From: Spirochaetia bacterium
GTDB lineage: Bacteria; Spirochaetota; Spirochaetia; Sphaerochaetales; Sphaerochaetaceae
Reading direction: 5' to 3'
Length of the DNA: 64,000 nt
NCBI GenBank assembly: GCA_022482625.1
Contig: JAKVOU010000001.1
Span: 2,156,784-2,220,783, forward strand
Shown in pieces: positions 10,956-63,760 of this stretch; position 1 is the first letter of the stretch; each line of letters opens with the position of its first letter. Below the pieces are notes generated by a model. That model had not been told where the DNA came from and ran no database searches. It saw only the letters and a list, made by a program, of their open reading frames with translations. The translations under genes were made by a program, and so were the position numbers.

Positions 10956-12320
10956 ATGAGCAAAATCAAAAAGACCGAAGAGAAATATGATTTTAATATT
11001 TCTGATCTAGGTGAGGCAAAGATTCCCACTCCGATTGTAATGAGTGAGATATCCGGTGAGGGACGGGCAAATTACGTGAGTGATAATGACCGCCTATATT
11101 TCAGTACCGAAACTATTCTTGACACCAATGGGAATAGGTTGCCGATGTTTGATGATACGGTTGAAAAAGCTGGGCCCCGTCAGAAGATTTATTTCAATCC
11201 TGCCCATGTCCATGCGGCTATCTGTACCTGCGGAGGACTTTGTCCTGGACTTAATAATGTTATCAGGGCTGTGGTACGTTGTTTCTGGTACCGATATGGG
11301 GTACGTAGGATCAGCGGGGTACAGTATGGCTATCGTGGCCTGCTTGAGAACAGTCCTTGGCCGTTGATTGCCCTTGACCCTGATATCGTGGATGATATTC
11401 AGGAAAAAGGTGGTACGATACTCGGTTCTGCCCGCGGTGGCGGAGAACTCGTTGATGAAATAGTAGACTCATTGGAGAGGCTCAATATCACTATCCTGAT
11501 TACCATCGGTGGAGACGGAACTCTTCGCGGAGCCTATGATATCGGCGAAGAAATCAAGAAAAGAGGTCTCAAGATTGCTGTCATCGGTGTACCGAAGACC
11601 ATTGACAACGACCTGTCTTTCATTCAAAGCTCCTTTGGCTTCGATACTGCCGTTACCAACGCAGTTCCCAGTGTCCGATGTGCCCATGTCGAGGCAAAGA
11701 ACTCAATCAATGGTATTGGTTTGGTAAAAGTAATGGGTAGGGAAAGCGGCTTTATTGCAGCCAATACATCCTTGGCACAGTCCGATGTGAATTTCTGCCT
11801 GATTCCTGAAAACCCGTTTGATTTGGAAGGGCCCAATGGACTTCTTGCACATTTGAAGGAAAGGATCCTTACCCGCAAGCATGCTGTCATTCTTGTTGCA
11901 GAAGGTGCCGGACAGGATCTGGTTCCCAAGACAGGGATAAAAGATGCATCAGGGAACATAAAGTATGGAGATATCGGTCTGTTCCTGAAAACGGAAATCA
12001 AACGTTTCTTCGTCGCTGAGGGAATTGAAGTAAACATCAAGTATATAGATCCTTCATACATCATCCGTAGCGCAGCTGCAGATTCCTTTGATTCCATCTA
12101 TTGTGCAAGGTTGGGAGCCCATGCCGTCCATGCTGCGATGGCAGGTAAGACACAATGCCTTATTTCCCAGATCAACAACAAATTTGTTCATATTCCGATC
12201 AAGCAGGCGGTGAGCAGACGTAATCATGTGGATATAGAAGGTAGCCTTTGGAGGGATGTCTTGGAAAATACCCGACAGCCTTTCAGCATGAAAAATGATG
12301 GTGAACTCAATCAGTTCTAA
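10956..12320 (+). CDS. 6-phosphofructokinase, long clade (probably ATP-dependent)
   Basis: 454 residues. Phosphorylates fructose 6-phosphate in glycolysis. The phosphoryl-donor motif reads ITIGGDGTLRG: the Gly after GGD is the residue associated with ATP use, whereas PPi enzymes usually have Asp. The catalytic motif is PKTIDND, with the Lys found both in PPi enzymes and in the ATP-using long clade known from trypanosomes and spirochaetes. I therefore favour ATP as donor. The N-terminal extension of about 70 residues before CTCGGLCPGLNNVIRAVV is typical of that clade. Ribosome site GGAGG lies just before the ATG. A terminator follows at once. Confidence 0.9.
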   Translation: MSKIKKTEEKYDFNISDLGEAKIPTPIVMSEISGEGRANYVSDNDRLYFSTETILDTNGNRLPMFDDTVEKAGPRQKIYFNPAHVHAAICTCGGLCPGLNNVIRAVVRCFWYRYGVRRISGVQYGYRGLLENSPWPLIALDPDIVDDIQEKGGTILGSARGGGELVDEIVDSLERLNITILITIGGDGTLRGAYDIGEEIKKRGLKIAVIGVPKTIDNDLSFIQSSFGFDTAVTNAVPSVRCAHVEAKNSINGIGLVKVMGRESGFIAANTSLAQSDVNFCLIPENPFDLEGPNGLLAHLKERILTRKHAVILVAEGAGQDLVPKTGIKDASGNIKYGDIGLFLKTEIKRFFVAEGIEVNIKYIDPSYIIRSAAADSFDSIYCARLGAHAVHAAMAGKTQCLISQINNKFVHIPIKQAVSRRNHVDIEGSLWRDVLENTRQPFSMKNDGELNQF

Positions 12321-12325
12321 CGTGT

Positions 12326-12355
12326 GGCTCCGGTGATTGACCGGGGCCTTTTTAT
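12326..12355 (+). terminator. rho-independent terminator after the phosphofructokinase gene
   Basis: GGCTCCGGT (12326-12334) pairs with ACCGGGGCC (12340-12348) around a 5-base loop, with one G-U pair, followed by a T tract. It ends the aminotransferase-regulator-phosphofructokinase unit. Confidence 0.9.
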
Positions 12356-12524
12356 TGGTTTGACTTTGTTTTTTGTACAAATAGGATTTCTGTTGTACTC
12401 TCGATACATTTTTACCCAATTAAAAACATAATAAATAATAAAGTAATTCTTTTTAATATAATGTTATATGTAAATTATATACAATTTTTCTAAAAAAATT
12501 TTTCTATTTTTTAAAAAAAAGTAC

Positions 12525-12550
12525 TTGATGTTTGAATTGGTTTGTATTAT
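12525..12550 (+). promoter_or_regulatory. candidate promoter of the small RNA
   Basis: A -10-like TATTAT is at 12545-12550. A weaker -35-like TTGATG lies at 12525-12530, giving a short 14-base spacer. The stretch upstream (about 12420-12520) is extremely A+T rich, as in many strong promoters. The spacing makes the -35 uncertain. Confidence 0.45.
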
Positions 12551-12556
12551 GTTTTG

Positions 12557-12658
12557 AGACGTTAGAGAGACAGACAATACTGAAACTCTACAAACCTCCT
12601 TTTGTTTTGCCTCGGTAGGCTTTTACCTCCTTTTGGCCTACCGGGGATTATTTTTTTC
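12557..12658 (+). ncRNA. candidate small regulatory RNA with two CCUCC motifs
   Basis: No open reading frame is present, yet a promoter-like element and a strong intrinsic terminator bound about 100 bases. The 11-mer ACCTCCTTTTG occurs twice: once unpaired-looking at 12594-12604, and once as the loop of the terminator hairpin at 12625-12635. The hairpin stem is CCTCGGTAGGC (12610-12620) with GCCTACCGGGG (12636-12646), then a T tract. CCUCCUUU is the same sequence as the 3' end of this organism's 16S rRNA, so the loops could pair with Shine-Dalgarno sites of mRNAs, as C-rich loops of known bacterial sRNAs do. Role inferred; no family recognised. Confidence 0.6.
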
Positions 12659-12863: not shown

Positions 12864-14219
12864 TTATGTTATCTGTGTCTGTTTCTTGAAGTAACTCAAT
12901 TCCGGAAGTACCAGGATATAAGCTAAGATTGTAGAAGCATAATCTGAAATAGGCTGAGCAATCTGTATTCCCCGTAGACCAAGGAAATGTGTCAGGATTA
13001 TCAGCAAGGGAATAAGAAATAGTCCCATTCTGGCAATTGAGGCAATGCTGGCCTTAAGGCTTTTTCCGATGACTTGGAGCAACATGGTACTGACGATATT
13101 GAAGGATAAAATAGGAAATGCAAGTGAAAATGCCCTCAGTGCATAGGCACCGATCCTTATGACGTCAGGATCATTTCTGAAAAATTGCACCAGAGTCCTG
13201 GGAAATATCCAACAGAAAGTCATCATGACCAAACCGACGACTACACCTGCTGCTGTACAGAATTGATAGCCATCATAGAGCCTTTTGAATTTTTTTGCTC
13301 CATAGTTAAAGCCACATACAGGTTGAAAACCTTGCCCTAGGCCTATGATGATGCAGACTCCGAAAAAAGATAACCTGGAATCGATGGAAAGTGCTGCGAT
13401 TGCCGTATCTCCATATTTTCCTGCACAGAAATTCAATACGATGGTTGAAATACTGGCGACCATATTCCTGAAAAAAGATGGTGAACCCAACGCAAGCATA
13501 GTGGATATATATCCATTTTTCAGTTTTATGGCAAAAAGTGGATGGCGTAGGTTTCCATGCATCGTACATCCATGCAACAGCAACAGGAAAGAAACGAACT
13601 GGCTGATGATGGTCGCAAGGGCGGCTCCTTTGATTTCCATATGTAGGGGAAAGATGAAGATAGGGTCAAGTATTACATTGATGATGACTCCTGATACGAT
13701 ACCTACCATGGAAAAGAAAGCACTGCCCTGATACCGAAGCTGGTTGTTGAGTACCAAGGCACTCATCATCCGGGGAAAGCCGAAAAGGATGATGGAAGCA
13801 TATGCATGTGCATAAGGACGGATAGTTTCCGTTGTTCCCAGGATACCAAGCAAGGGATTGAGGAAGGCCAGTCCTGTGACCATGAATAAGAGACCAAGCA
13901 GGATAGAAAAATAGAAACCGGTCGAAGCCATTTGTTCGGCTTCCTTTCGTTTGCCTGCACCTAGTTTCTGGGACAGATAGGTTCCGGTCCCTTGACCACA
14001 AGTGAATCCCAAGGCCTGCATGAATCCCATGAGTGGCAGGACGATACCGATTGCTGCAGTTGCACTGGTATTGATTCTCCCGATGAAGAAAGCATCAACC
14101 ATGTTGTACGAAGCTGATACCAGCATGCTTATGATGGTAGGTATGGCGAGTTTTATAATCAGGGGCCTGACTGGTTCAGTCAGCAGGCCTTTCTAGAGAT
14201 CAATATCTTTTCTTTGCAT
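12864..14219 (-). pseudogene. MATE-family multidrug/Na+ exporter with an early in-frame stop
   Basis: The reading frame encodes a 12-helix MATE exporter, which expels cationic drugs using a Na+ or H+ gradient. The uninterrupted part (ATG at 14126) gives 420 residues, but it starts inside the first membrane helix. Reading upstream in the same frame gives the family's normal N-terminus (KGLLTEPVRPLIIKLAIPTIIS) and, before it, MQRKDIDL from an ATG at 14219. Between the two is an in-frame TAG at 14193-14195. No ribosome site precedes the ATG at 14126. Either the gene is inactivated at codon 9, it starts at a non-ATG codon (a CTG follows an AGAAAGG stretch), or the base is an error. The rest of the frame is intact, so any loss is recent. 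Confidence 0.7.
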
Positions 14220-15058: not shown

Positions 15059-16633
15059 TTAGCCTAACAAATCTGCATAGGCCTTCAGTATGTCATTACC
15101 TTCACAGCCCGCAAGGACTTTTTTTGCAAGTTTTTTCCCAAGTTGGACTCCTTCCTGGTCAAAGGAATTCAAATTCCAGATAAGGCCCTGGAACATTACC
15201 TTGTTTTCAAAATGTGCAAGAAGAGCTCCTAAGACTTTCGGAGTCAGTTGCTTTGCATACAATAGTGATGAGCAACGTTCACCGGCAAACTGTTTGTTCG
15301 GATTGTCATCATTCTTACCTAAGGCAAAGGCAACTATCTGCGCTGCAAGGTTTGCATTGAGTTTCGTTTGGCTATATGAATCTGCTGTTTTGATGTCTTT
15401 GCCATATTGGCAATTCTTGAAGCCAATGAACTGCAATGGTACGATGTCTGTTCCTTGATGCAGCAACTGGTAAAAAGAATGCTGTCCATTGGTTCCCGGT
15501 TCTCCGAAAATAATCGGTCCTGTCGGATATGCTACAGGTTTCCCGAAACGGTTTACATGTTTTCCATTGCTTTCCATGTCCAGTTGCTGCAGATGTGCAG
15601 GGAAACGGGACAATGCTTGTGAATAGGGAAGGATGGCTGTTGTCGGATAACCTATCACATTCCTGAGATATATGCCTATAAAGGCATCCAGCATCGCAGG
15701 GTTGTCTTTCACCTGTGGGGCAAGTGCTTTGATATCTGCTTCATGGGCTCCTTCAAGCAGGGCTTGGAAAACATCGAATCCCAGTGCAATGGAAATTATG
15801 GTACCACCTACGGCACTTGTAGAGCTGTAGCGGCCTCCGATATAGTCATCGATGAAGACTGCATCGCGGACATCTTTGCTTTTTGCCAGAGGGCTGGTTT
15901 TGCTTGTAACGGCAATCATATGCTTCGAAGCATCAAATCCTTCGATTTTGGTTGATTTCAATGCATCAAAGACCAAATCCCTGTTTGTCAGGGTTTCCTG
16001 TGTCGTACCGCTTTTTGAGACAAGGATGAAAAGTGTCGTTTCGAAATCCATGTCCTTGATGACTGCAGCAACATCATCAGGATCGACATTGCTGATGAAT
16101 TTTGCTTCAAGCATCTGCCGTTTCTGACCTTCACACCAGCCTTTCAGTGCCAGGTAAAGGGCTCTTGGGCCCAGGTCGCTGCCCCCGATACCGATTTGAA
16201 CGACAGTCTTGAAAGATTTGCCCGTAGAACCTACCAGTTCGCCATTTCTTATGTCTTCTGATAGCTGTTTGATTTTTTCCAGCTGGCTTTTGTAGAATTG
16301 TCCCTTGTCTTCTCCGTCTGCATGGACCGGACCGAGTACCTGTCCTCTGGTAAGGTGATGGAGCACGAGGCGATTCTCGCCTGTATTCATCCGTTCCCCA
16401 GAAAGGATGGCTTTGTATTTGTCTAGGAGTTGCTGTTCCTGTGCAAGCTCCTGGAAGACTGCCAGGTGCCTTTCATCGATCGGCATGGCGGCATAGTCAT
16501 AGATGATGCCGGCTCCTTCGGTTGCTTTATATGAATTGATGCGTCGGCTGTCCAGGCAGGATTTGAGCCTGACTGGTGCAAGCGCCTTCAATGCCTCGAA
16601 AGAGGCAAGTGTATCAAGATTGTGGAATTCCAT
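15059..16633 (-). CDS. pgi: glucose-6-phosphate isomerase
   Basis: 524 residues, close to the usual length of bacterial Pgi. Interconverts glucose 6-phosphate and fructose 6-phosphate in glycolysis. Motifs: QIGIGGSDLGPRALY, the phosphate-binding SKSGTTQET, the signature GTNGQHSFYQLLHQGTD containing the catalytic His region, and a C-terminal QEGVQLGKKLAKKVL stretch with the catalytic Lys. It begins 12 bases after the argR stop on the same strand, so argR and pgi are likely co-transcribed. Confidence 0.98.
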   Translation of the reverse strand: MEFHNLDTLASFEALKALAPVRLKSCLDSRRINSYKATEGAGIIYDYAAMPIDERHLAVFQELAQEQQLLDKYKAILSGERMNTGENRLVLHHLTRGQVLGPVHADGEDKGQFYKSQLEKIKQLSEDIRNGELVGSTGKSFKTVVQIGIGGSDLGPRALYLALKGWCEGQKRQMLEAKFISNVDPDDVAAVIKDMDFETTLFILVSKSGTTQETLTNRDLVFDALKSTKIEGFDASKHMIAVTSKTSPLAKSKDVRDAVFIDDYIGGRYSSTSAVGGTIISIALGFDVFQALLEGAHEADIKALAPQVKDNPAMLDAFIGIYLRNVIGYPTTAILPYSQALSRFPAHLQQLDMESNGKHVNRFGKPVAYPTGPIIFGEPGTNGQHSFYQLLHQGTDIVPLQFIGFKNCQYGKDIKTADSYSQTKLNANLAAQIVAFALGKNDDNPNKQFAGERCSSLLYAKQLTPKVLGALLAHFENKVMFQGLIWNLNSFDQEGVQLGKKLAKKVLAGCEGNDILKAYADLLG

Positions 16634-42441: not shown

Positions 42442-42495
42442 CGAGTAACTTATTTTGTAGCATCCTGTTGTTACTCCCTGATAAGGAGCTGGGCG

Positions 42496-42768
42496 TTGAC
42501 GAAGACGAGTAACAGATACAGATGGCCTGAGAGAGGGAACCCTTGGCTGGAAGGTTTCTGCCGATCTTTCTGTGAAAACCACTTCTGAGCTGTACCGTGA
42601 AAGGTCCGTACCTAGTAATTGTACCGTATTTCCTGCGTGAAGGGGAAAAATTGAGCGTCTTTCCTTAGGGGAAGGAAGCAAGGTGGAACCGCGGAGTCCT
42701 TATGCCTTCGTCCTTGCACTGATGAATGTCATCATGTGCGAGAATGATGACATAAGGATTTTTTTTGC
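42496..42768 (+). promoter_or_regulatory. T-box riboswitch controlling thrS
   Basis: The T-box core AAGGTGGAACCGCGG is at 42680-42694. Upstream, stem I shows the GAGAGAGGGAAC and GGCTGGAAGG segments (42530-42555). A specifier-like ACC (Thr codon) at 42578-42580 follows GTGAAA and precedes A, the usual arrangement. Downstream is the terminator: TCCTTATG (42697-42704) with CATAAGGA (42751-42758), an inner 9-bp stem TGTCATCAT/ATGATGACA, and eight T. Uncharged tRNA-Thr would pair with ACC and with the T-box bulge and allow read-through into thrS. Confidence 0.92.
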
Positions 42769-48321: not shown

Positions 48322-49868
<1,547 letters not shown>

Positions 49869-49989
49869 GCAAAGAAAGGCAGGGGCATGCCCCGCTCACA
49901 GGCGGCGTGCCCCGAAATATATGGCGATCTTTTAGAAATACTCTGATTTAGAATTGGCTCTCTTCTCTTCTCTTATATATATGTCAACC

Positions 49990-50063
49990 GGGACTGTAGC
50001 TCAGGTGGTTAGAGCGCTTGCCTGATAAGCAAGAGGTCACAAGTTCAAGTCTTGTCAGTCCCA
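49990..50063 (+). tRNA. tRNA-Ile (GAT) in the 16S-23S spacer of operon 1
   Basis: 74 bases. The acceptor stem GGGACTG/CAGTCCC is fully paired, with D-arm TAGCTCAGGTGGTTAGAG, anticodon loop CTGATAA (anticodon GAT) and T-loop GTTCAAGTC. The discriminator is A and CCA is not encoded. Confidence 0.96.
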
Positions 50064-50121
50064 TGTGTGATATTTGTTAATGTTTTTTTTGAATAGAGAG
50101 CGAAGGGACAGCAAGGGCAAT

Positions 50122-53071
<2,950 letters not shown>

Positions 53072-53146
53072 ATTGTCGTTGCGGTCCCCCGCAGGGCCAA
53101 GGCCGGGTGTACCAGGGACTCTCCTGGTGCCCCTGGGCGTTGGCCG

Positions 53147-53260
<114 letters not shown>

Positions 53261-58826: not shown

Positions 58827-60372
<1,546 letters not shown>

Positions 60373-60490
60373 GGAAAGAAAGGCAGGGGCATGCCCCGCT
60401 CACAGGCGGCGTGCCCCGCAGCAAGGGTGGTCCTTTCCAGGGGGGCCCCCGGGGCTTCCTTCCGTTTCCCGTCTTCCCTGAGGCAGAGCC

Positions 60491-60564
60491 GGGGGCGTAG
60501 CTCAGGTGGTTAGAGCGCTTGCCTGATAAGCAAGAGGTCACAAGTTCAAGTCTTGTCAGTCCCA
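60491..60564 (+). tRNA. chimeric tRNA: Ile (GAT) body with an Ala-like 5' acceptor strand
   Basis: From the D-stem onward this is identical to tRNA-Ile(GAT) of operon 1. The first seven bases are GGGGGCG instead of GGGACTG, while the 3' strand is still CAGTCCC. Pairs 5 and 6 of the acceptor stem are thus mismatched (G-G and C-A) and pair 4 is G-U. GGGGGCGTAGCTCAG is how bacterial spacer tRNA-Ala genes commonly begin. Function is doubtful. Confidence 0.85.
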
Positions 60565-60622
60565 TGTGTGATATTTGTTAATGTTTTTTTTGAATAGAGA
60601 GCGAAGGGACAGCAAGGGCAAT

Positions 60623-63571
<2,949 letters not shown>

Positions 63572-63646
63572 ATTGTCGTTGCGGTCCCCCGCAGGGCCAA
63601 GGCCGGGTGTACCAGGGACTCTCCTGGTGCCCCTGGGCGTTGGCCG

Positions 63647-63760
<114 letters not shown>

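Follow-up and report, generated by a model that had tools for sequence, protein, structure and literature searches.

A conserved small RNA element displaying anti-Shine-Dalgarno motifs in the class Spirochaetia

In this study, we describe a class-wide sRNA family of Spirochaetia, new as far as searched and of a known working type, whose representative lies in a 64-kb stretch of DNA (the window). A conserved RNA element exists here almost beyond doubt. The explanation that we favor as a whole, and consider likely, is a trans-acting, Hfq-independent regulatory RNA of about 100 nt that blocks Shine-Dalgarno (SD) sites; transcription, SD pairing, repression, the target set and the promoter type are what we infer from sequence. 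This RNA would display the 16S rRNA 3′-end sequence ACCUCCUUU once or twice, one copy being single-stranded or in a small hairpin and the other in the loop of the RNA's own terminator. The GC-rich motif would pair with extended SD sequences (AAGGAGGU and longer), and the pairing would block ribosome binding and thereby repress a set of mRNAs at the level of translation; transport and other metabolic genes are the most likely targets.

The element occupies the 543-bp gap between a phosphofructokinase gene (pfk) and a MatE-family gene (Table 1), and two genes separate it from the glucose-6-phosphate isomerase gene (pgi). An initial annotation had described this stretch as free of reading frames and as carrying the 11-mer ACCTCCTTTTG twice, and both points hold: no ORF of at least 60 aa overlaps positions 12525–12658, and the two plus-strand copies in Table 1 are the only exact ones in the window. 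When one mismatch was allowed, ACCTCCTTTTG had six sites in the window against 1.6 expected, a number that no shuffle reached. In the whole 3.47-Mb genome there is a single instance of the double motif. An exposed ACCUCCUUUUG is located between the 5′ hairpin and the terminator, and the element region folds better than its shuffles (z −3.2, 0/200). The other details of the annotation need some correction. The −10-like box is present and is accompanied only by a weak −35 element, and this pair was not among the matches of a consensus promoter scan of the window. The intrinsic terminator was found as described, with a stem of 12 pairs (the 11 noted earlier plus a closing U-G), and the second 11-mer lies within a loop of 13–15 nt, UUUACCUCCUUUU(G), rather than forming it exactly. 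The equation of the motif with the 16S 3′ end is valid over 9 nt, ACCTCCTTT, and not over all 11, the 3′ terminus of the window's 16S genes being GGATCACCTCCTTTCT. These genes belong to two complete rRNA operons about 10 kb apart (48322–53259 and 58827–63759), with a tRNA in each 16S-23S spacer. The window also contains a T-box leader (RF00230, 102.7 bits) at 42487–42718.

Table 1. Predicted features of the sRNA locus and its neighbors (positions within the window).
Feature	Position	Strand	Remarks
pfk, phosphofructokinase (Pfam PFK), upstream neighbor	10956–12320	+	own terminator at 12326–12348
Putative promoter	12522–12550	+	−10-like TATTAT, 12545–12550; weak −35 TACTTGATG, 12522–12530
Predicted sRNA gene	12557–12657	+	about 101 nt; limits deduced from −10 box (start) and U-tract (end)
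5′ hairpin UAGAG...CUCUA	12563–12590	+	from folding; sequence variable
Anti-SD motif 1, ACCTCCTTTTG	12594–12604	+	single-stranded in the window's element
Terminator hairpin	12610–12646	+	CCTCGGTAGGCT (12610–12621) paired with GGCCTACCGGGG (12635–12646)
Anti-SD motif 2, ACCTCCTTTTG	12625–12635	+	in terminator loop, displaying ACCUCCUUUU
U-tract of intrinsic terminator	12651–12657	+	seven T
MatE-family gene, downstream neighbor	12864–14126	−	
pgi, glucose-6-phosphate isomerase	15059–16633	−	

A failure of close relatives to conserve the two motifs had been named beforehand as grounds for abandoning the reading, and both motifs are kept in 4/4 genomes of the genus. The recommended search of relatives for the motif with its hairpin found the element across family and class. 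With the element as query, blastn matched 82 of 101 family genomes at E ≤ 1; some of these matches are not genuine, and the better ones spanned just the two motifs and the terminator. At loci around pfk homologues the element recurs; its stems differ from locus to locus, and both motifs stay the same. The initial homologue set was selected by a pattern demanding CCTCCTTT twice, and motif invariance in that set is partly built in. This bias is lessened by a covariance model (R1) built from 30 relatives with the window's own sequence left out, which itself rewards the motif and so leaves some bias in the motif counts. In the window, R1 recovered the element at 49.5 bits (E 4.7e-9), the runner-up scoring 11.7 bits. 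It matched 89 of 101 family genomes at E ≤ 1, most below 1e-5, and at E ≤ 0.001 it matched 183 of 395 genomes and 68 of 133 genera of the class. The element is likewise present in a group of complete genomes of 2.8 Mb from a different family (L172, L174, L175). At the same threshold none of 60 genomes from other spirochaete classes matched, with two weak matches at 0.002 and 0.008. Double-motif pattern matches in five other genomes of the phylum (L113, L115–L117, L129/L130) had no hairpin when inspected by eye.

Among loci fetched from the family and the class by the covariance model, without the pattern, 41 of 41 carry two copies of ACCTCCTTT. Motif 1 is exact in 28 of 40 deeper members, and in some deeper relatives a small CAUC...GAUG hairpin contains it. 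The best-kept part is motif 2, in the terminator loop, with CTCCTTT in 38/40 and exact ACCTCCTTT in 32/40 of these members, and the T-run is retained in nearly all aligned homologues. Two members of family f2 (L178, L180) have an additional hairpin with a TTTCACCTCCTTTC loop 5′ of the terminator hairpin, so that the loop is in tandem. Two relatives in the same genus have a further element of related build (L182:3024–3074, L183:3002–3052), in which AACCTCCTTTT is combined with a terminator showing CTCC in its loop; it is perhaps a paralogue, and it was not found in the window's genome.

The terminator stem is supported by covariation. As stem lengths differ across the 48-sequence MAFFT alignment, covariation was tested on a 30-sequence subset with a specified structure. 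Two-sided compensatory changes occur in 8 of 10 stem pairs, and 92.9% of cells pair; shuffling lowers this share to 79.1%, and sliding the partner strand lowers it to 61% or less. The covariation score of 0.375 (0.144 in shuffles) was reached by 0/500 shuffles. Over 54 sequences the mid-stem pairs alternate among C-G, G-C, A-U and U-A; these stems were picked as stems, which makes the 30-sequence shuffle test the stronger one, and kinship among sequences inflates both the covariation and the promoter statistics. The unpaired anti-SD motif is fixed while the surrounding stems change sequence. Upstream of it, the 45 nt 5′ of motif 1 have z < −2 in 39% of 54 homologues (mean z −1.3). The interpretation as a small RNA with two anti-SD motifs is thus supported by conservation and by covarying stems.

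The best-kept part of the element being its terminator, and the element following pfk in most relatives of the family, it could be asked whether an independent RNA exists at all, or only a strong terminator or a processed 3′ end of pfk read-through, with a loop that has no trans function. We regard this as very improbable. In the window pfk has its own terminator, which makes the sRNA a separate unit. Furthermore, pfk is more than 1 kb from the element in several relatives (L050, L063) and absent from the fetched stretch in some deeper members that keep the element (L172–L180), and hence the sRNA is not tied to pfk. A fixed 9-nt loop is not needed by a terminator, and a conserved promoter-like box lies just 5′ of the element in deeper members. 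The order pfk, sRNA and convergent pgi is nevertheless recurrent in Sphaerochaetaceae and in deeper lineages (L042, L071, L072, L076–L081, L092). That the opposite strand is the functional one, with AAAAGGAGGT serving as the SD sites of a small antisense gene, is hardly credible: an ATG follows the antisense SD by 3–9 nt in some homologues, whereas many others, including that of the window, have none, the locus holds no ORF of at least 60 aa, and the T-run and promoter-like boxes fit the plus strand only.

Returning to a plus-strand sRNA with its own promoter, we find TGTAAC in the 80 nt preceding the element in 39 of 53 deeper members (2% for shuffled sequence), and in 28 deeper members it is spaced 17 from GTT, the latter reading GTT(T/G/C). 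Judged from the TGTAAC-N17-GTT box, transcription would begin at the base of the 5′ hairpin. Taken as a −35 element, the TGTAAC box has an AAC core, which presumably indicates an ECF-type sigma factor, and the sRNA of the basal lineages is probably transcribed from such a promoter. In family relatives the corresponding position holds clearer sigma-70-like boxes, for example TTTACA-17-TATATT in L054/L055, and the sRNA of Sphaerochaetaceae is probably transcribed from a promoter of that kind. The argument for an own promoter is one of sequence conservation, the promoter in the window's genome being weak. The promoter type thus appears to change on a conserved sRNA, from TGTAAC-N17-GTT (L071–L092, L239–L258) to sigma-70-like boxes in Sphaerochaetaceae. 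A search for a TGTAAC-GTTTA promoter regulon in six genomes gave matches not above the reversed control.

Hfq (PF17209) was absent from the window's genome and matched in 1 of 198 class genomes, while it was detected in five control genomes. The sole class match is partial and comes from the end of a contig in a 7%-contaminated assembly. Hfq is thus essentially absent from the sampled Spirochaetia, despite the conservation in this class of a short RNA carrying a long U-tract. An Hfq-dependent sRNA was rejected, as the host encodes no detected Hfq; GC-rich seed pairing without a chaperone fits this absence, as in NfeR1.

The segment ACCUCCUUU(UU), fixed and unpaired, has AAAAGGAGGU as its complement, and we have good confidence that the sRNA acts by blocking SD sites. 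The pattern AAGGAGGT-N4-9-ATG has 38 matches in the window's genome against 15 in a reversed control, and about 1% of genes have AAGGAGGT. Starts with AAGGAGGT from four genomes gave 79 ORFs of at least 60 aa, many of which were assigned, on sequence similarity and visual inspection, to ABC permeases, ATPases or binding proteins, and some of these genes are conserved between genera or species (L286/L357, L290/L333, L324/L336/L352). A recent duplication is seen in L307 and L310, two loci about 100 kb apart whose 150-aa lipoprotein-like products are identical. In a neutral target sample of 40 stretches of 20 kb (666 genes, 23% of the genome), the best predicted duplex, at −27.5 kcal/mol, was that of a GntP-type permease, and the next was at −18.8. 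The leader of this permease gene (C1:1976725; L400:1738, L300), ACAATACAAAAGGAGGTTTTGTATG, is predicted to pair with motif 1. Several of the top 38 predicted targets are binding proteins and permeases by Pfam, about three times their share in 95 random genes in a rough count. Regulation of the neighbors pfk, pgi and others was rejected, with no special predicted pairing.

Binding-protein-like genes show stronger predicted pairing to the sRNA (p 4e-5), and also to 16S rRNA (p 2e-6); after correction for 16S pairing, the binding-protein lean was not significant (p 0.06). The transporter lean is therefore inseparable from generally strong SDs and is a lead rather than a result, and a transporter regulon is a tentative proposal, for which we would give slightly less than even chances. 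The same data bear on whether the RNA could tune translation globally by mimicking the 16S 3′ end, competing with the 30S subunit for all strong SDs or titrating a protein such as Era. Its motif equals the 16S 3′ end over 9 nt that are fixed over the class, predicted pairing follows general SD strength (r 0.74), and a conserved specific target was not found: a search for an orthologous target with extended pairing (12-nt extension) across the family returned none, many pattern matches being the element's own antisense strand. However, the sRNA motif diverges from 16S after ACCUCCUUU (UG versus CU), and the rarity of AAGGAGGT among genes makes full pairing selective. Era reads GAUC upstream in the 16S 3′ end, and this upstream GAUC is missing from the sRNA motif. 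Global tuning of this kind is distinctly unlikely in our judgment. The wider proposal of a class-wide 16S 3′-end mimic that sets competition for strong ribosome sites, with ECF-type control in basal lineages and housekeeping control in Sphaerochaetaceae, we consider unlikely as well, if a little less so.

SD blocking on a restricted set of mRNAs, the preferred reading, has counterparts among known sRNAs. The element had been proposed as a new sRNA, and this stands: no Rfam family reaches its gathering score for the element, and a literature search, largely without subscription journals, found no anti-SD sRNA described for these spirochaetes. NfeR1/alpha-r14 of Rhizobiales is an RNA of about 120 nt that, independently of Hfq, reportedly silences ABC-transporter mRNAs via redundant anti-SD loops (PMC10746234). 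It resembles the spirochaete RNA in having identical, ultraconserved anti-SD loops on divergent stems and redundant motifs (PMC10746234), and it differs in its phylum and in its motif, CCUCCUCCC in three hairpins versus ACCUCCUUU once or twice. Seven loci gave no alpha-r14 match at E ≤ 1, and membership was rejected on the other motif, the other hairpin number and the lack of an Rfam match. Like NfeR1, the spirochaete RNA most likely silences mRNAs in trans by covering SD sites. CcsR/cuckoo RNAs also carry anti-SD loops. An RpoH promoter drives four tandem copies of these stress-linked RNAs of Alphaproteobacteria together with a DUF1127 protein, and RNase E cuts the RNAs out of the shared transcript (PMC10253847). 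Membership in this group was rejected as well, since the spirochaete RNA is single copy, has its own promoter-like box and has PFK and MatE as neighbors. Yfr1 of cyanobacteria is a short sRNA found phylum-wide, in which one ultraconserved anti-SD-like motif lies between two stem-loops. Its motif is of another sequence than that of the spirochaetes, and it is likened here by its general description. RsaE/RoxS of Firmicutes is an RNA of about 100 nt with several C-rich motifs binding ribosome sites and regulates central carbon metabolism (PMC6435200), and its UCCC-type motifs, structure and phylum differ from those of the spirochaete RNA, so that homology is not indicated. AbcR/alpha-r15 (RF02345) and LhrC (RF00616) share C-rich anti-SD segments and a terminator hairpin, and membership was rejected on sub-threshold scores (26 and 32 bits, with cutoffs of 40 and 110, respectively). 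We regard RsaE and LhrC/AbcR as analogues.

Spirochaete sRNAs outside Borrelia and Leptospira have hardly been described, and a conserved sRNA with an obvious seed provides a first handle on post-transcriptional control in a class nearly without Hfq. Furthermore, it is probable that unrelated phyla have converged on the same anti-SD loop design, and nutrient uptake may possibly be the aim of this design in both phyla.
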